Assembly (NCBI GenBank): GCA_944322255.1
Contig: CALUOK010000010.1
Location: 1 to 64,000, forward strand
Reading direction: 5' to 3'
Length of the DNA stretch: 64,000 nt
Origin: Candidatus Methanomethylophilaceae archaeon
Lineage (GTDB): Archaea > Thermoplasmatota > Thermoplasmata > Methanomassiliicoccales > Methanomethylophilaceae
The position numbers and the translations under genes are program-made. The notes beneath the pieces were generated by a model. That model was given only the letters and a program-made list of their open reading frames with translations, was not told the DNA's origin and did no database searches. Of this stretch, positions 21,482 to 48,765 are shown in pieces. Each line of letters opens with the position of its first letter. Positions within the stretch are counted from its first letter, which is position 1.

Positions 21482-22567
21482 TCACATCTTGCCGTACTGG
21501 CTGACAGCAGCCATGACGGCGTCGACGTTCTCCAGCTTGGTCTCGAGGTCGGGCGGGACCTCGCAACCGGAGGAGATGCAGTACCTGGAGTTGAGGCCCT
21601 TCTTGCACAGGGCGGTCTTGACTTCCTGGCACAGGTCGGCGGTGACCTTGGTGATCTGCTCGACGGATCCCCTGACGAACAGCTGGGGGTCGATGTTACC
21701 CATCATCAGGCACTTGTCTCCGTAGCCCTGCTCGATGACCTCGGCTGCGGTGGGGCTGCCGGGGATCAGGGGGTAGTAGGCCATGGAGTACATGTCTACG
21801 CCGAACTTCTTGACCTGGGTGTCCAGGTGGGGCAGGTCAGCGCAGTTGTGGATTCCGAGTCCCATTCCGAGCTCCCTGACCTTGTCGTTGCATGCCTTGG
21901 CGTACTTGTCACCCTCGAACTCCGCGTACTCGGGGTCTCCGAGGCAAGCGTAGTTACCCCAGAGGTAGTCCCAGCAGAATCCCTCGGCTCCGGTCTCAGC
22001 GATCTTCTCGCAGGTCTCGAGGCACAGCTTGGTGGTCTCGCCGAGAGCCTTGTGGACGGGTGCGGGGTCGGAGAACATGTCCATGAAGACCCTCTCCGCT
22101 CCTCCGGCCTGGGTCAGGGTGAGGAGGGGTCCCTCGAGGAACGCGATGTTGAAGGACTTGCCCTTGATCATGGGGGCCAGTCTCCTGTTCATGTCGATCA
22201 GGTCTCCGGTCCTTCCCTTGGTGATGTCGGGGCAGACGATCTTGTCGTAGTCCTCCATGTCGTGGATGATGTGGTCATCGACGAACGGGGTGTTCTCCGT
22301 GTCCATCCTGACGTGGGCTCCGAGTGTGGAGGCGGTGATGGACAGGTCGATCAGGGTGACGGTGTAGGGGAATTTCCAGTGCTCCACTCCCTTGGCGAAA
22401 GACTCAGCGCACAGCTCGGGGTTCGTGGCCCACTCCTTGTACGTGACTTTCTCGGGCATGAGCCTCCTGCACAGAGCGAGTGCGAGGGGGGACGAGGCGA
22501 GCTCGTCGACCGGCTCGTTCTGGATAGCAGCGATGGCCCTCTCGTAGGGTGTCATGGGTGCGACCAT
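21482..22567 (-). CDS. UroD-fold corrinoid methyltransferase (copy 1)
   Basis: 361 residues. It has the UroD/MtaA/MtbA/MtsA/CmuA barrel with the zinc residues in GIHNCADLPHLD (about 240) and SSGCEVPPD (about 335). Its start lies five bases after the corrinoid protein stop, so the two are co-translated and probably act together. It is longer than MtaA-type enzymes and has a characteristic WDYLWGNYACLGD stretch near residue 200. The likely reaction is transfer of a methyl group between a methylated compound, the partner corrinoid and coenzyme M. Methyl sulfide or thiol is the best guess (MtsA/MtsB-like), without proof. Confidence 0.75.
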   Translation of the reverse strand: MVAPMTPYERAIAAIQNEPVDELASSPLALALCRRLMPEKVTYKEWATNPELCAESFAKGVEHWKFPYTVTLIDLSITASTLGAHVRMDTENTPFVDDHIIHDMEDYDKIVCPDITKGRTGDLIDMNRRLAPMIKGKSFNIAFLEGPLLTLTQAGGAERVFMDMFSDPAPVHKALGETTKLCLETCEKIAETGAEGFCWDYLWGNYACLGDPEYAEFEGDKYAKACNDKVRELGMGLGIHNCADLPHLDTQVKKFGVDMYSMAYYPLIPGSPTAAEVIEQGYGDKCLMMGNIDPQLFVRGSVEQITKVTADLCQEVKTALCKKGLNSRYCISSGCEVPPDLETKLENVDAVMAAVSQYGKM

Positions 22568-22572
22568 CTAAA

Positions 22573-23205
22573 TCACTGTCCCTTGAGCCAGTTGACGCAG
22601 TCCTGGGCGTTGTTGTCCCTGTGGTCCGCGCCGATCTCCTCCGCGAAGCTGGGGGATGTGGGTGGTCCGCCGATGGTGACGGTGCAGTTTCCGCGGGTTC
22701 CCTGCTCCTTCAGGAGGTCGATGGTGTTCTTCATGTTGTCCATGGTGGGGGTCATCAGGGTGGACATGCACAGGATGTCGATGCCCTCGTTCTTGACGGT
22801 GTCCGCGATGGTCGCGGGGGGAACGTCCTTTCCGAGGTCGTTTACGATGTATCCGCCAGCGGTCAGCATGGTCTTGACGATGTTCTTTCCGATGTCGTGG
22901 ACATCTCCCTCGACGACACATGTGGCGGCCTTCTTGGCGTCAGCGAGGTCCTCCTTGGGGATGGCGGGCAGAAGCAGGTCGAGTCCGGCGTACATCGCGT
23001 GAGCGGCGACGAGAACCTGGGGCAGGTAGATCTGGTGAGCGGCGTACTTGTCACCGATCACGTTCATTCCCTTAACCAGTCCCTCGTTGATGGCTTCAAC
23101 GGGGTTGACTCCGGCGTCGAGGGCTTTCTGGGCAGCGGCCTTGGAGAGGTCTGCCTTACAGTTGATAACTGCGTTGGCGAGCTCCTCAAAGATCTCTTCA
23201 CTCAT
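22573..23205 (-). CDS. Corrinoid protein of a methyltransferase system (copy 1)
   Basis: 210 residues. An N-terminal helical cap (EEIFEELANAVINCKADLSK) is followed by the B12-binding domain with the cobalt-ligand motif GDVHDIGKNI near residue 103 and the later GGPPTSP loop. This matches MtaC/MtbC/MtsB-type proteins that carry the methyl group on Co(I). GGAGG precedes ATG 23205. A TATA box on the minus strand (23261-23270) lies about 55-65 bases upstream of the start, giving a leader of some 30 bases. The 3' half is nearly identical to the second copy at 28.7 kb. Confidence 0.88.
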   Translation of the reverse strand: MSEEIFEELANAVINCKADLSKAAAQKALDAGVNPVEAINEGLVKGMNVIGDKYAAHQIYLPQVLVAAHAMYAGLDLLLPAIPKEDLADAKKAATCVVEGDVHDIGKNIVKTMLTAGGYIVNDLGKDVPPATIADTVKNEGIDILCMSTLMTPTMDNMKNTIDLLKEQGTRGNCTVTIGGPPTSPSFAEEIGADHRDNNAQDCVNWLKGQ

Positions 23206-27588: not shown

Positions 27589-28677
27589 TCACTGTCCGGC
27601 GCCGAACTTGTGGACGGCGTCCATGACAGCGGTGACGTTGTCGATGTGGCACTCGAGATCGGGAGGGACCTCGCATCCGGAGGACACGCAGAAGTGCGTG
27701 TTCAGTCCGCGCTTGCACAGGGCGGTCTTGGCCTCCTGGCACAGGTTCATGGTGGTCTCGTAGACCTGCTCGTAGGTGTTCCTCATGAACATCTGCGGGT
27801 CGATGTTGCCGAAGATGGTGCACTTGTCGGCGTACCCGTCCTCGATGACCTTGGTCATGTTGGGGGAGGCCTCGGCCAGGGGGTAGTAGGCGAGAGAGTA
27901 CACGTCGACGCCGAACTTGTTGATCTGGGTGTCCAGATGGGGCATGTCGGCGCAGTTGTGGATTCCCAGTCCGAGCCCGTTCCTGCGGGTGGCCTCGTTG
28001 GTGGCCTTGGCGTACTTGTCGCCCTCGAACTCGGCGTACTCTTTGTCTCCCAGAACGGTATAGTTGCCCCAGAGGTAGTCCCAGCACATTCCCTGGACTC
28101 CGGCCTCGGCGATCTTGTCGACGGCGTCGCAGCACATCTTGGTGGTCTGCTCGAGGGCCCTGTGGACGGGTGCGGGGTCGGTGAACATGTCCATGAACAG
28201 CCTCTCGGCACCGGCGGACTGGGACAGGGTGAGGAGGGGTCCCTCCAGGAAGGCGATGACGAAGGACTTGTCCTTCAGTCCCTCGACGACCTTGTGGTTC
28301 ATCCTGATCAGGTGTCCTGTCCTGCCCTGGGTGACGTCGGGGGCCTGGATCTTGTCGTAGTCCTCCATGTCGTGGATGATGTGTCCGTCGACGAAGGGTG
28401 TGTTCTCCTTGTCCATCCTGACGTTGGCGCCCAGGTCGTGGGCGGTGACGGACAGATCCTCCAGGGTGACGGTGAAGGGGAACTTCCACTTGTTGAATCC
28501 CTCGATGTAGGACTGTGCGCACAGGTTGGAGTCGGTGGCCCACTGCTTGTAGGTGACGGTTCCGGGGAGGAGCCTCCTCTGGAGACCGCAGACAAGGGGG
28601 TAGGCGGCGTACTCGTCGACGGGCTCGTTGTTGAGAGTCGCGATGGCCCTCTCGTAGGGTGTCATGGGTGCGACCAT
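27589..28677 (-). CDS. UroD-fold corrinoid methyltransferase (copy 2)
   Basis: 362 residues, paralogue of the enzyme at 21482 along its whole length, starting with the same MVAPMTPYERAIA. The zinc residues are kept in GIHNCADMPHLD and SSGCEVPPD. Differences cluster in the N-terminal 60 residues and around 245-275, which may reflect a different substrate. It is coupled to its own corrinoid gene with the same five-base spacer. Expected role: methyl transfer between a methylated compound, that corrinoid protein and coenzyme M. The substrate is not known. Confidence 0.75.
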   Translation of the reverse strand: MVAPMTPYERAIATLNNEPVDEYAAYPLVCGLQRRLLPGTVTYKQWATDSNLCAQSYIEGFNKWKFPFTVTLEDLSVTAHDLGANVRMDKENTPFVDGHIIHDMEDYDKIQAPDVTQGRTGHLIRMNHKVVEGLKDKSFVIAFLEGPLLTLSQSAGAERLFMDMFTDPAPVHRALEQTTKMCCDAVDKIAEAGVQGMCWDYLWGNYTVLGDKEYAEFEGDKYAKATNEATRRNGLGLGIHNCADMPHLDTQINKFGVDVYSLAYYPLAEASPNMTKVIEDGYADKCTIFGNIDPQMFMRNTYEQVYETTMNLCQEAKTALCKRGLNTHFCVSSGCEVPPDLECHIDNVTAVMDAVHKFGAGQ

Positions 28678-28682
28678 CGATC

Positions 28683-29318
28683 TCACTGTCCCTTCAGCCA
28701 GTTGACGCAGTCCTGGGCGTTGTTGTCCCTGTGGTCGGCTCCGATCTCCTCGGCGAAGGACGGGGAGGTGGGTGGTCCGCCGATGGTGACGGTGCAGTTT
28801 CCGCGGGTTCCCTGCTCCTTCAGGAGGTCGATGGTGTTCTTCATGTTGTCCATGGTGGGCGTCATGAGGGTGGAGAGACACAGGATGTCGATGCCCTCGC
28901 CCTTGACGGTCTCGGCGATCTTGGAGGGAGCGACGTCCTTTCCGAGGTCGTTGACGATGTATCCTCCGGCGGTCAGCATGGTCTTGACGATGTTCTTTCC
29001 GATGTCGTGGACATCTCCCTCGACGACGGCCGTGGCGGCCTTCTTGGCATCGGCCAGATCCTCCTTGGGGATGGCGGGAAGCAGGAGATCGAGTCCGGCG
29101 TACATCGCATGGGCTGCGACGAGGACCTGGGGCAGGTAGATCTGGTGGGCGGCGTACTTGTCGCCGATCACGTTCATTCCCTTGACCAGTCCCTCGTTGA
29201 TGGCGTCGACGGGGTTGATTCCCTCGGCCAGGACTTTCTCGGCTGCGGCTTTGGAGAGGTCCGCCTTGCAGTTGATGACCGCGTTGGCGAGCTCCTCAAA
29301 GATCTCCTCTTTGGACAT
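28683..29318 (-). CDS. Corrinoid protein of a methyltransferase system (copy 2)
   Basis: 211 residues with the same helical cap and B12 motif (GDVHDIGKNI) as copy 1. The N-terminal cap and the 145-160 region differ, while the last 45 residues are identical. AAAGGAG precedes ATG 29318. A minus-strand TTTAAATAATT box at 29371-29380 lies about 55 bases upstream. It should be a substrate of the downstream UroD-fold methyltransferase and of RamA. Confidence 0.88.
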   Translation of the reverse strand: MSKEEIFEELANAVINCKADLSKAAAEKVLAEGINPVDAINEGLVKGMNVIGDKYAAHQIYLPQVLVAAHAMYAGLDLLLPAIPKEDLADAKKAATAVVEGDVHDIGKNIVKTMLTAGGYIVNDLGKDVAPSKIAETVKGEGIDILCLSTLMTPTMDNMKNTIDLLKEQGTRGNCTVTIGGPPTSPSFAEEIGADHRDNNAQDCVNWLKGQ

Positions 29319-45374: not shown

Positions 45375-46469
45375 ATGACCGACATGGGCGCTTCTGAACT
45401 CAGGGAGCTTGCGACCAGATACCGCGAGGGCGACGGGGTCGAGAAGGATCCCGTCAAGGCTGCGGAACTTCTCGGAAAAGCATCGGCCCTCGGGGACCCC
45501 CAGGCCGCTTCCTCCCTCGGATACATGCTCATGGTCGGAGAGGGCGTCCCCATGGACATGGCGGAGGCCGAGCGCCAGCTCAGGAGGGCCGCCTCGGGGG
45601 GCGTGACCGCCGCGATGTGCAACCTCGGCGTGATCCTGTCCGAATCCGACCCGGAGGAGTCCCTGGGATGGTTCGAGAGGGCGGCCGACCTCGGCAACCT
45701 GAAGGCCGTCAGGAACCTCGCGGCCTCGTACTCCTCCGGATGCGGGGCGAGTCTCGACAAGGCCCGTGCCGCGGAGTACTACCGCAGGGCGGCGGACATG
45801 GGCGACGTTGACTCCATGTGCGTCCTGGCGTCCATGCTCCGCAACGGCGACGGCGTCCCCATTGACAAGGCCGGCGCCGCGGACCTGTACCGCAGGGCGG
45901 CCGACCTCGGCGACCCCGACGCGCAGTACGACCTAGCATTCATGCTGGACTCCGGAGAGGGCATCCCCCAGGACCGCGAGGAGGCCGAGAGGCTGTTCAC
46001 GCTGTCAGCCAAGCAGGGCGACACCGACGCCTGCCTGTGCATCGGAGGGATACTGTACGAGCGCGGGGACTACGCCGGGGCAGAGGGGCACTTCATGACC
46101 GCCGCCCTGAAGGGAGACGTCAAGGCAGCCTACAACCTGGGCCTGATGTACTCGGAGGGCTCGCTGGGCGAGCCGGACATGGACAAGGCGGAGGAGTGGT
46201 TCGAGTCGGCGGCCTCGGAGGGGTTCGCCTACGCGCAGACCAGCCTCGCCGGGATCCTGTACTCCAGAGGTGACGTGGACGGCGCGGCCGGATGGTACCG
46301 GAAGGCCGCCGAGCAGGGCGAGCCCACGGCGATGTACAACCTGGGCGCCTTCGGCGTGTCCGGGATGATAAGGATGGACGAGAGGGAGGCCATGGACCTG
46401 CTGGTGAGGGCGGCGTCCGCCGGCGTGGAGGAGGCCCGCGTCCTGCTTTCGAGGATCACCAGCGGATGA
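45375..46469 (+). CDS. Sel1-like (TPR) repeat protein
   Basis: 364 residues made of about nine Sel1 repeats, seen as recurring A(x)LGxMLxxGxGVPxDxxxAxxxxRxAADxGD units from residue 5 to the end. No signal peptide or catalytic domain. Sel1 arrays form superhelices that hold protein partners, often in signalling or stress. The start ATG 45375 follows an AT-rich stretch with CGTATATGAATATCG (45325-45339). The end overlaps the opposing HAD gene by 14 bases. Confidence 0.85.
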   Translation: MTDMGASELRELATRYREGDGVEKDPVKAAELLGKASALGDPQAASSLGYMLMVGEGVPMDMAEAERQLRRAASGGVTAAMCNLGVILSESDPEESLGWFERAADLGNLKAVRNLAASYSSGCGASLDKARAAEYYRRAADMGDVDSMCVLASMLRNGDGVPIDKAGAADLYRRAADLGDPDAQYDLAFMLDSGEGIPQDREEAERLFTLSAKQGDTDACLCIGGILYERGDYAGAEGHFMTAALKGDVKAAYNLGLMYSEGSLGEPDMDKAEEWFESAASEGFAYAQTSLAGILYSRGDVDGAAGWYRKAAEQGEPTAMYNLGAFGVSGMIRMDEREAMDLLVRAASAGVEEARVLLSRITSG

Positions 46470-47091
46470 CCTCTTCCAGGGACTCGATCCTATAGGTGCA
46501 GTCGACGCCGTCGTATCCTCCCAGGCCGTTGTGGCGGTCCACTATGGCGCAGTCTATCCCGACCGCGGCGGACGCCAGGGCGTCGTTCGGACTGTCCCCG
46601 ATGTAGAGGGTCTCCTCCGCCGGGACGTCGAAGCGGGACATTCCCAGGAGTATCGGGTCGGGATTGGGCTTGTGGAGCTCGGTGTCGTCGAAACCCACCA
46701 CGGTCTCCGGATACCCCTCCATCCCGTTGGCCCTCAGCAGGTTGACGATCTTGTAGGACTTCTTCCCGGACACGATGCCTATGCGCTTCCCCTCGGACTT
46801 CAGGAACTCCAGCACGCCGCGGGTCTCCGGGAACGGAGGGGCGCCGAGGTAGGCGTCCGAGTTGACAATGCGCATGAACTCGTCGTAGTAGGAGTCGTAC
46901 CTGGTGCGGTCCTCGCCGCAGTACCTGTCGTAGACCTGGTCCAGCGACAGCCCCAGGCACTCGGCGAAGCGGTCGTCGTTGTACTCCACGCCCAGCATCG
47001 GCAGTGAAGCCTTCAGGATGGCCTCGATGCCGCACCTGGTGTCAAACAGCGTGTTGTCGAAGTCGAACAGGTAGAGGGTGTACTCCTTCAT
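46456..47091 (-). CDS. HAD-family phosphatase (phosphoglycolate-phosphatase like)
   Basis: 211 residues. HAD motifs: FDFDNTLFD (residues 9-17), IVSGKK (about 108), the motif III Lys in LHKPNPDP and GDSPNDALAS (about 170). A helical cap lies between motifs I and II, as in subfamily I. It dephosphorylates a small metabolite such as phosphoglycolate. Its start overlaps the UbiE-type gene stop by four bases, so it belongs to the menA-ubiE operon and could remove a phosphate from an intermediate there. Confidence 0.75.
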   Translation of the reverse strand: MKEYTLYLFDFDNTLFDTRCGIEAILKASLPMLGVEYNDDRFAECLGLSLDQVYDRYCGEDRTRYDSYYDEFMRIVNSDAYLGAPPFPETRGVLEFLKSEGKRIGIVSGKKSYKIVNLLRANGMEGYPETVVGFDDTELHKPNPDPILLGMSRFDVPAEETLYIGDSPNDALASAAVGIDCAIVDRHNGLGGYDGVDCTYRIESLEEVIRW

Positions 47092-47837
47092 CTCGTACCC
47101 ACGTAGATGTTGACGGCCCCGAAGCTCTTCACATAGAACCTGGCGTCCTCGAAGCCGGCCTTCCTGAAGATCTTGACCATGTCCTCGCCGTACGGGAACC
47201 CCTCGATGGAGCAGGTGAGCCACTCGTAGGCCGACTGCCTGCCGTCGATGGACTTGCCCTTGTCGTACTTGCGGCCGTAGCGCTTGACCCTCTTCATGTA
47301 GATGTTGTAGAAGAAGCGGACCACGGAGTTCTTGGGCTTGGAGAGCTCGGCCACCACCACCTTCCCTCCGGGGGCGAGGACGCGGTGCATCTCGCAGACC
47401 GCCTTCTGGATGTCGCAGACGTTCCTGAGCATGTATCCGGATGTGACCAGGTCGAAGGACCCGTCAGGGAACTGAAGGTCCAGGGCGTCCCCGACCTGCC
47501 AGTCGATCTTGACCGGAAGACCGAGATCCTTCTCCTTCCTCTCGGCGAGCTCCAGCATCCTGGGGGTGATGTCGACGCCGACCACGGTGGATCCCTCCCC
47601 GGCCGTCCTGGCCACGTGGAACGCGATCTCCCCGGTACCGGTTCCGACATCGAGGCACCTCTTGCCCTTTATGTCGCCGGCCTTCCTCATCATGAACTTG
47701 TGCCAGCCCTGCACCATGTGCATGCTCATGATCTCGTTCATCTCGTCGTAGTAGTCCGCGATCTCGGTGAAGACATCCTTGATGTACTCCTCCTTGCCCT
47801 CGAACTGGACGCCTTTCTTGAGCTCTTCCTCTGCCAT
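47088..47837 (-). CDS. UbiE/MenG-type C-methyltransferase
   Basis: 249 residues. SAM motif I LDVGTGTGEIAFH (about 63), motif II-like FDLVTSGYMLRNV (about 122) and the family post-motif APGGKVVVAELSKP (about 150) match demethylmenaquinone/ubiquinone methyltransferases. The N-terminal FTEIADYYDEMNEIMSMHM is also typical. It methylates a prenylated quinone-like ring. It lies one base after menA. Methanogens do not make menaquinone, so the product may be another redox lipid. Confidence 0.8.
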   Translation of the reverse strand: MAEEELKKGVQFEGKEEYIKDVFTEIADYYDEMNEIMSMHMVQGWHKFMMRKAGDIKGKRCLDVGTGTGEIAFHVARTAGEGSTVVGVDITPRMLELAERKEKDLGLPVKIDWQVGDALDLQFPDGSFDLVTSGYMLRNVCDIQKAVCEMHRVLAPGGKVVVAELSKPKNSVVRFFYNIYMKRVKRYGRKYDKGKSIDGRQSAYEWLTCSIEGFPYGEDMVKIFRKAGFEDARFYVKSFGAVNIYVGTR

Positions 47838-47838
47838 T

Positions 47839-48765
47839 TCAGATCACCGGAATGAGATAGTAACTTATAATGTAGCCCAGAACCAGCAGCACGCCGAAGT
47901 GCCAGTTGTGCCTGAACGCCATCGGCACCAGCATGAAGCTGGCATGCGGGTCGGTCGGAGCCTTCCTGGAGTTCTTGATGAGTCCCCACGCGTTGTACAG
48001 CGCAACGAACGCCAGTGCGCATCCCCAGGGCGCCACGCCTGCGGCCATTAGGGCTAGCAGGATCGGGTAGGACACCAGGTTCATGAACAGGTAGAGGCGC
48101 AGGCTGGACCCGTAGCTGAGATGGCCGCAGAGCGTCCCCACGCCCGCCTTCTTGTCCTCATGGTAGTCCCTGGTCTCGTTGCCGGTCAGGACGCCCGTTA
48201 TCATGAACGCGTTGGGCAGCGAGATGAGCAGCACCTCCCATGAGAAGATGTCGCCGGTCAGGACGTAGTACGTGCCCAGTGGCATCAGCAGTCCCATCAT
48301 TAGGAACACGGACGGCTGCCCCAGGCCGTAGTACTTGTAAGCCGGACCGATGGTATACATGCCGGCTCCGGCGACGCCCAGGAGACCGTAGATGACGATC
48401 CCCCATCCGACGTGCCAGATGAACACCAGGCCGATGACGCATGTGGCCAGCAGGCAAAACATTCCGGCAAGGAGGACGTGCTTAGGCTTCAGGACGCCCG
48501 TCACGAGCTCGGGCGAGCGCGTCTCGTTCTCGACGGTGTCGGTGCCCTTGGAGAAGTCGCCGTAGGTGTTGAGGAGGTTCGACGCCGACTGCAGGAGGAT
48601 CCCGCCGATCAGGACGAGCACGAGAAGCACCCACTCCAGAGCCCCGAACGCCTGGTGATGGTAGGCCAGGGCACCGCCTATGAGCACCGGGACCACCGCG
48701 CCGTGGAGCGTCCACGGTCTGAACGCGTTGTACCAGCCGGCCTTGACCGGCTTCACACCTGCCAT
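47839..48765 (-). CDS. UbiA-family prenyltransferase (MenA-like)
   Basis: 308 residues with about eight or nine membrane helices. The first prenyl-diphosphate site is SASNLLNTYGDFSKGTD (NxxxDxxxGxD, about residue 60) and the second is GNETRDYHEDKKAG (about 195). The RPWTLHGAVVPVL opening is MenA-like. It attaches a polyprenyl chain to an aromatic ring in the membrane. It forms an operon with the UbiE-type methyltransferase and HAD phosphatase. Confidence 0.82.
   Translation of the reverse strand: MAGVKPVKAGWYNAFRPWTLHGAVVPVLIGGALAYHHQAFGALEWVLLVLVLIGGILLQSASNLLNTYGDFSKGTDTVENETRSPELVTGVLKPKHVLLAGMFCLLATCVIGLVFIWHVGWGIVIYGLLGVAGAGMYTIGPAYKYYGLGQPSVFLMMGLLMPLGTYYVLTGDIFSWEVLLISLPNAFMITGVLTGNETRDYHEDKKAGVGTLCGHLSYGSSLRLYLFMNLVSYPILLALMAAGVAPWGCALAFVALYNAWGLIKNSRKAPTDPHASFMLVPMAFRHNWHFGVLLVLGYIISYYLIPVI

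Follow-up and report, generated by a model that had tools for sequence, protein, structure and literature searches.

A MenA-UbiE gene pair of Methanomethylophilaceae that may finish a menaquinone-type lipid from a scavenged ring precursor

Which redox lipid, if any, serves the membrane of the Methanomassiliicoccales is the question raised by a small gene cluster in the window analysed here, a stretch of 64,000 nucleotides from contig CALUOK010000010.1 (C10 in our numbering) of a Candidatus Methanomethylophilaceae archaeon, whose genome comprises 1.88 Mb and is 96% complete. The cluster encodes a MenA-type polyprenyltransferase, a UbiE/MenG-type C-methyltransferase and a HAD-superfamily hydrolase. 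The original prediction, made from the DNA alone, correctly stated that this order has no known membrane electron carrier. The gene set itself is not a new lead, having been published in 2014 (PMC4153887). We favour, with about evenly divided confidence, the view that the MenA-UbiE pair finishes a menaquinone-type lipid from a scavenged naphthoate ring precursor, and that the prenyl tail comes from genes behind the Fpo operon.

The MenA-like, UbiE-like and HAD phosphatase genes are found where they had been predicted, all on the minus strand (Table 1), and their products exceed the profile cut-offs for UbiA/MenA, UbiE and HAD_2. The MenA-type protein scores 109.6 bits against UbiA PF01040 (cut-off 34.2) and 105.4 bits against TIGR00751 menA, over the curated cut-off of 102.15. 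The UbiE-type protein reaches 199 bits against PF01209 (cut-off 20.1) and 206 bits against TIGR01934 MenG/UbiE, over the curated cut-off of 158.35, and the HAD protein 118.6 bits against HAD_2 PF13419 (cut-off 23.8). Third-position GC is 0.86, 0.92 and 0.91 for MenA, UbiE and HAD, which is the range usual for coding frames. The description of the three genes as an overlapping operon holds in part: they form one minus-strand unit in the order MenA-UbiE-HAD, and the UbiE and HAD reading frames share 4 nt, but the MenA stop codon and the UbiE start are separated by a 1-nt gap without overlap, and the HAD gene does not belong to the conserved core, as set out below. Narrower equivalog models were not passed. 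The cut-offs of the PRK06080-type MenA equivalogs were not reached (best 148.1 versus 264 bits), and the UbiE-type protein narrowly missed NF001244 (206.8 versus 216 bits) and stayed below the strict PRK00216 cut-off; both proteins are therefore divergent members, the MenA-type protein at most a divergent one. The latter carries the motifs NTYGDFSKGTD and GNETRDYHEDKKAGVGTL, and both Asp-rich motifs are kept, with N63, N66, D70 and D76 as well as N196, R199, D200 and D204 invariant in 14 sequences. The UbiE-type protein has the S-adenosylmethionine motif LDVGTGTGE and is 76-96% identical to 11 sequences of the same genus, a conservation higher than that of MenA.

The PRENYLTRANSFERASE question is posed by a genome with three UbiA-family genes, namely the window's MenA, a gene resembling digeranylgeranylglyceryl phosphate (DGGGP) synthase, and a divergent third one. 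Models of DGGGP synthase gave no match to the window's MenA at E<0.01. In a tree of 73 rows, the family clade that contains the window gene has full support and falls into the MenA half; the DGGGP synthases form a clade of their own. In a bootstrapped tree of 36 rows, a clostridial MenA-like protein is the sister of the family clade (100/96), which also groups with E. coli MenA (98/97). Forcing the family clade together with DGGGP synthase cost 21.3 log units in the approximately unbiased (AU) test (p-AU 0.022). UBIAD1 was the sole match of a PDB sequence search (E 6.4e-28) and also the best fold match of the predicted MenA structure (mean pLDDT 81.9), with a TM of 0.73 at 27% identity, compared with a TM of 0.57 for the DGGGP synthase 6m31. 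Both proteins share the motifs TYxDFSKGxD and NxxRDxxxD, although UBIAD1, the menaquinone-4 synthase, is an animal enzyme that uses menadione and geranylgeranyl diphosphate (GGPP). A grouping of the prenyltransferase with DGGGP synthase had been considered in the original prediction itself; profiles, tree, AU test and fold comparison all reject such a membership. The kinship of the clade to the clostridial protein, the only such row in the tree, hints at a gain from bacteria. Two further members of the superfamily may be recorded here: the clade of the divergent third gene occurs in several families of the order, its neighbours in the window's genome being PurP-like and radical SAM genes, and a genome of family f2 (G036) has an additional prenyltransferase (L160 517-1470) with 408 bits against PRK12871, over the cut-off of 281.

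The pair of MenA and UbiE is not a chance neighbourhood, and it is a family trait of the Methanomethylophilaceae. MenA of the window type was present in all 36 genomes of the family that were examined, the window's own included (at least 55% identity), and in 23 of 26 in a wider draw. Of the 68 MenA loci that come from named genomes, one is clostridial; the other 67 are archaeal and bear titles of Methanomethylophilaceae, Methanomassiliicoccaceae, Thermoplasmata or unnamed archaea. UbiE follows MenA in 60 of the 62 Methanomethylophilaceae loci with enough flank, and in one of the two others (L368) the sequence extends just about 0.7 kb past MenA. In three genomes of the family (G083, G189 and G313), the window-type MenA and UbiE are missing together, as would be expected if they worked as a unit. 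A second MenA clade in the trees comes from other families of the order, and in four genomes (G040, G049, G058 and G059) UbiE adjoins a MenA-like gene. The HAD gene comes after the pair in just 17 of 60 family loci; it is probably a lineage-specific passenger rather than a core member, and because of its patchy presence the hydrolase was set aside as a member of the pathway.

While the two finishing enzymes are conserved, the early enzymes that were tested are not found with them. The original prediction had pointed to the futalosine pathway as something to be checked; MqnA/MqnD (PF02621) gave no match in the window's genome and none over the cut-off in 60 relatives, with a positive control that matched in 4 of 14 genomes. 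MenD (TIGR00173) also was over the cut-off in none of the 60 relatives, which gave weak matches only, and its positive control was over the cut-off in seven. The weak matches can be read as related thiamine diphosphate enzymes such as acetolactate synthase. De novo synthesis of menaquinone by the futalosine or the classical route was rejected on the absence of these marker genes. The family thus has late menaquinone enzymes without the tested early markers, and it is the last two steps of the classical route that are kept.

A candidate for the import of the missing ring precursor came from a survey of 21 family loci, where a gene recurs about 1 kb upstream of MenA. Two copies of it match PF01758, the sodium/bile-acid symporter (SBF) family, with 35-38 bits (cut-off 24.3). 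One such SBF gene is that at L050 11201-12181. In 52 of 61 family loci, an SBF-type gene is found no more than 1.3 kb away from MenA, and 47 of these 52 are in divergent orientation. In most of the family, this transporter is the likely candidate for the import of a soluble ring precursor.

A parallel module exists in family f6 of the order. Four of its genomes (G043, G046, G055 and G057) share the gene order of an SsuA/NMT1-type binding protein, an ABC ATPase, a fused permease-UbiA protein, UbiE and UbiD; the domains were scanned in G046, and the binding protein in G055 as well. In the fusion protein, of 541-553 residues, an ABC permease domain precedes a UbiA domain, which scores 277 against TIGR01475 (cut-off 180.8) and resembles MqnP below the MqnP cut-offs. 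The UbiD protein reaches 625.5 bits (cut-off 495.9) against TIGR03701, the menaquinone-biosynthesis decarboxylase of the MqnL step. No MqnA/D was over the cut-off in these genomes. Archaeal homologues of UbiD serve the archaeal mevalonate route, and UbiD is a single-copy gene in the genomes apart from the four of f6, which have a second one; as only this second copy is MqnL-like, the single UbiD was set aside as quinone evidence. The module corresponds to the late futalosine pathway (MqnP and MqnL with UbiE), from which it differs by the fusion of its prenyltransferase to an ABC permease and by the lack of MqnA/D, and it was not found in the window's genome. It is what a salvage of 1,4-dihydroxy-6-naphthoate would be expected to look like. 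That each of two unrelated importers appears to be paired with a late quinone route of a different kind is, we think, the strongest argument for salvage in this order.

The genes for a prenyl tail are found behind the Fpo operon, where the window's genome encodes an E-polyprenyl diphosphate synthase (IDS) and a geranylgeranyl-reductase-family protein (GGR). The order fpo-IDS-GGR was seen in every complete fpo stretch examined, from five families of the order, the synthase of one genome (G131) lying about 7 kb further on. Two genomes from a different family of the class did not show this order. A phenylalanine five residues before the first DDxxD motif is the usual sign of a C20 product. It is present in the second synthase of the genome, the GGPP synthase of the mevalonate cluster, whereas the fpo-linked synthase has an alanine at this position, as does the octaprenyl synthase IspB of E. 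coli, and its product is therefore likely to be C30 or longer. A methanophenazine tail synthase of the Methanosarcina type was rejected, as the two synthases score 110.1 and 108.8 bits against the geranylfarnesyl model NF040627, far below the cut-off of 600. The genus includes a subclade (G007 and G030) whose fpo-linked synthase lacks both DDxxD motifs (HDRID or HDMID; QEDLLD or RNDLED), and a second synthase encoded elsewhere is intact, which suggests that the two may act as a two-subunit long-chain synthase. Several other genomes of the genus have similarly divergent extra synthases.

In the mechanism that we propose, MenA would join a long polyprenyl diphosphate to a head group of the dihydroxynaphthoate type, and UbiE would then methylate the ring, MenA and UbiE together being the last two steps of menaquinone synthesis. 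The head group would not be made by the cell; it would be taken from neighbouring bacteria as a soluble precursor, most simply 1,4-dihydroxy-2-naphthoate (DHNA), in most of the family probably by the SBF-type transporter beside MenA. The tail would probably be provided by the long-chain-type synthase behind the Fpo operon, the adjacent geranylgeranyl-reductase-type enzyme may saturate it, and the finished lipid would be reduced by Fpo.

Table 1. Positions of the features discussed; coordinates without a locus handle refer to the window
Feature	Location	Strand	Basis or remark
MenA-type (1,4-dihydroxy-2-naphthoate) polyprenyltransferase, UbiA superfamily, 308 aa	47839..48765	-	TIGR00751, UBIAD1 match, tree
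UbiE/MenG-type C-methyltransferase, 249 aa	47088..47837	-	TIGR01934, PF01209
HAD-superfamily hydrolase, 211 aa	46456..47091	-	PF13419
Fpo operon, window's genome	L037 1822-11895		
E-polyprenyl diphosphate synthase (IDS)	L037 12058-12981		directly behind Fpo operon
Geranylgeranyl-reductase-family protein (GGR)	L037 12986-14077		TIGR02032 186 bits, cut-off 158.8
Separate DGGGP-synthase-like gene	L001 551-1411		PRK12882 216 bits
Third, divergent UbiA-family gene	L003 1381-2388		
Synthases of the genus subclade (fpo-linked copy without DDxxD; intact second copy elsewhere)	L227 13009-13959, L228 6983-7930, L159 9116-10075, L197 7585-8544, L199 7533-8492		
Family f6 cluster	L189 7773-15159 (G046); also L188, L190, L191		profile scans

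Around the unit, htpG precedes the MenA-UbiE pair in the window. A convergent gene at 45375-46469, with Sel1-like repeats as judged by eye, shares its last 14 nt with the end of the HAD gene. Two similar gene pairs of the window (21482-23205 and 27589-29318), in which one protein starts with MVAPMTPYERAIA and the smaller one has EEIFEELANAVINCKADLSKAA near its start, resemble, by eye only, duplicated methyltransferase and corrinoid-protein genes.

Several points weigh against a menaquinone finished from a scavenged ring, and the explanation is weakest where it concerns the membrane chain. The CoM-S-S-CoB heterodisulfide lies at about -140 mV. Menaquinone, at -80 mV, is too positive and a poor donor to it, with methanophenazine at -165 mV (PMC5244752). 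In the usual model, Fpo and HdrD form a direct complex and no carrier is required (PMC7374477, PMC10804542). The order lacks HdrE (PMC10804542), and cytochrome genes are reported to be missing from it (PMC5011839, PMC7374477), so that there is no known oxidase for the quinol. The tail genes must also have a use without MenA, at least in one genome (G083), which keeps fpo-IDS-GGR without MenA or this UbiE and whose sole UbiA-family gene is a DGGGP synthase. As to the importer, the SBF gene is not adjacent to MenA in the window's own species, and in the 1.11 Mb of the window's genome that were covered (about 59%) only a distant SBF protein was found (L277 9197-10147, 24-26% identity). Finally, the absence of early steps covers only MqnA/D and MenD; MenB, C, E and F as well as MqnB, C and E were not searched, so an unusual route to the head group is possible.

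It is this last point that gives room to a first rival, which we regard as unlikely: the same enzymes would make a menaquinone-like product whose head group is produced in the cell by an unrecognised route with non-orthologous early enzymes. Besides the narrow choice of tested markers, it is favoured by the retention of the pair in samples from rumen, horse and termite as well as in some that are apparently not from the gut, where a steady supply of DHNA is not assured. However, the neighbourhood survey across the family recognised a transporter and no head-group enzyme with the pair, and the f6 module combines late enzymes with an importer.

A rather low probability is likewise assigned to a product that is a prenylated aromatic without respiratory role, such as an antioxidant or a membrane component, with the Fpo-like complex passing electrons directly to HdrD. 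This agrees with the direct coupling of the usual model (PMC7374477, PMC10804542), and the pair is indeed not essential for Fpo, as G083, G189 and G313 keep Fpo without it. The strong conservation of the pair, the prenyl-tail genes behind fpo throughout the order and the existence of the parallel MqnP-UbiE-MqnL module speak against it.

We consider it quite improbable that the product of the pair is a prenylated phenazine similar to methanophenazine, or another aromatic of low potential, that connects Fpo with HdrD, even though heterodisulfide reduction fits only a low-potential carrier. Methanophenazine is ether-linked, whereas MenA makes carbon-carbon bonds and UbiE methylates carbon. A UbiA-type enzyme, Mpz10, does prenylate a phenazine (PMC4044012), and in M. 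barkeri the transcripts of UbiA and UbiE were increased where much methanophenazine is expected (PMC6315138). Mpz10 and MenA, however, share 18.6% identity and do not group together, and the two polyprenyl synthases of the genome both fall outside the Methanosarcina geranylfarnesyl type. That the prenyltransferase acts in archaeal membrane-lipid synthesis, as DGGGP synthase or a side branch of it, in an operon unrelated to redox lipids, can be dismissed as highly improbable. The gene does belong to the UbiA superfamily, and archaea need a DGGGP synthase, but the genome has a separate one, and the profiles and the AU test described above exclude the window's gene from that group.

Returning to a menaquinone-type lipid finished from a scavenged ring, the prediction that the operon may make an uncharacterised prenylated redox lipid keeps its core, as the enzymes are of the quinone type, do not group with DGGGP synthase and occur in a genome whose Fpo operon is linked to prenyl-tail genes. 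A need for a new or methanophenazine-like lipid is not supported, because the enzymes are menaquinone-finishing ones and the tail synthase scores 110 bits against NF040627, for which the cut-off is 600. More tentatively, and with confidence clearly short of even, we propose that membrane electron transport of the order runs partly on menaquinone with a ring of bacterial origin, that two parallel salvage modules evolved (SBF with MenA-UbiE, and the ABC-MqnP-like fusion with UbiE and MqnL), and that the tail comes from behind Fpo.

Compared with known systems, the pair resembles the classical tail end of menaquinone synthesis (MenA-MenG/UbiE) in its two adjacent enzymes, which are over profile cut-offs and keep the Asp-rich motifs, but it occurs in a methanogenic archaeon, MenD is not over its cut-off in the order and the PRK06080 and PRK00216 cut-offs are not reached. 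Late genes without early ones, in a gut or host setting, are also found in precursor scavengers, namely Prevotella (menA and ubiE; PMC5738691), Streptococcus agalactiae (menA alone; PMC6030563) and lactobacilli (menAG; PMC4746308). DHNA is a likely growth factor of gut bacteria with menA and ubiE (PMC5738691), and gut microbes with only menAG were predicted to import it by unidentified transporters (PMC4746308). All of these scavengers are bacteria whose quinol-using reductases or oxidases are known, whereas the methanogen has no known quinol oxidase, and in most of its family a candidate importer adjoins the genes.

The proposal of a redox lipid from ubiA and ubiE is not new. Borrel 2014 (PMC4153887) assigned ispA, ubiA and ubiE to a 'liposoluble electron transporter' of undetermined nature. 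This carrier 'X' is linked to Fpo and involves the same kind of ubiA-ubiE, whose accession numbers adjoin each other in both 'Ca. M. alvus' and 'Ca. M. intestinalis'; ispA is called a GGPP synthase there, and the text considered here makes no mention of a reductase, a transporter or a head-group deficit. In the open-licence literature, no published claim of quinone-precursor salvage in methanogens was found. Apparently new are the detection of finishing steps only, with neither MqnA/D nor MenD over the cut-off in any of 60 relatives, the SBF-type transporter that adjoins MenA in most family loci, though not in the window, the f6 ABC importer with its permease-MqnP-like fusion, UbiE and MqnL, and the order-wide long-chain-type polyprenyl synthase and prenyl reductase behind the Fpo operon.

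A lipid carrier that possibly serves the Fpo-like complex of the Methanomassiliicoccales was postulated in 2014, and the gene evidence now makes its precursor dependence testable. The analysis also names putative importers of quinone precursors, a class listed as unidentified in PMC4746308. If the salvage is true, one of the major groups of methanogens in rumen and gut would depend on bacterial quinone precursors for its energy metabolism; such a dependence might help to explain the poor growth of these organisms in pure culture, and it would bear on methane control.

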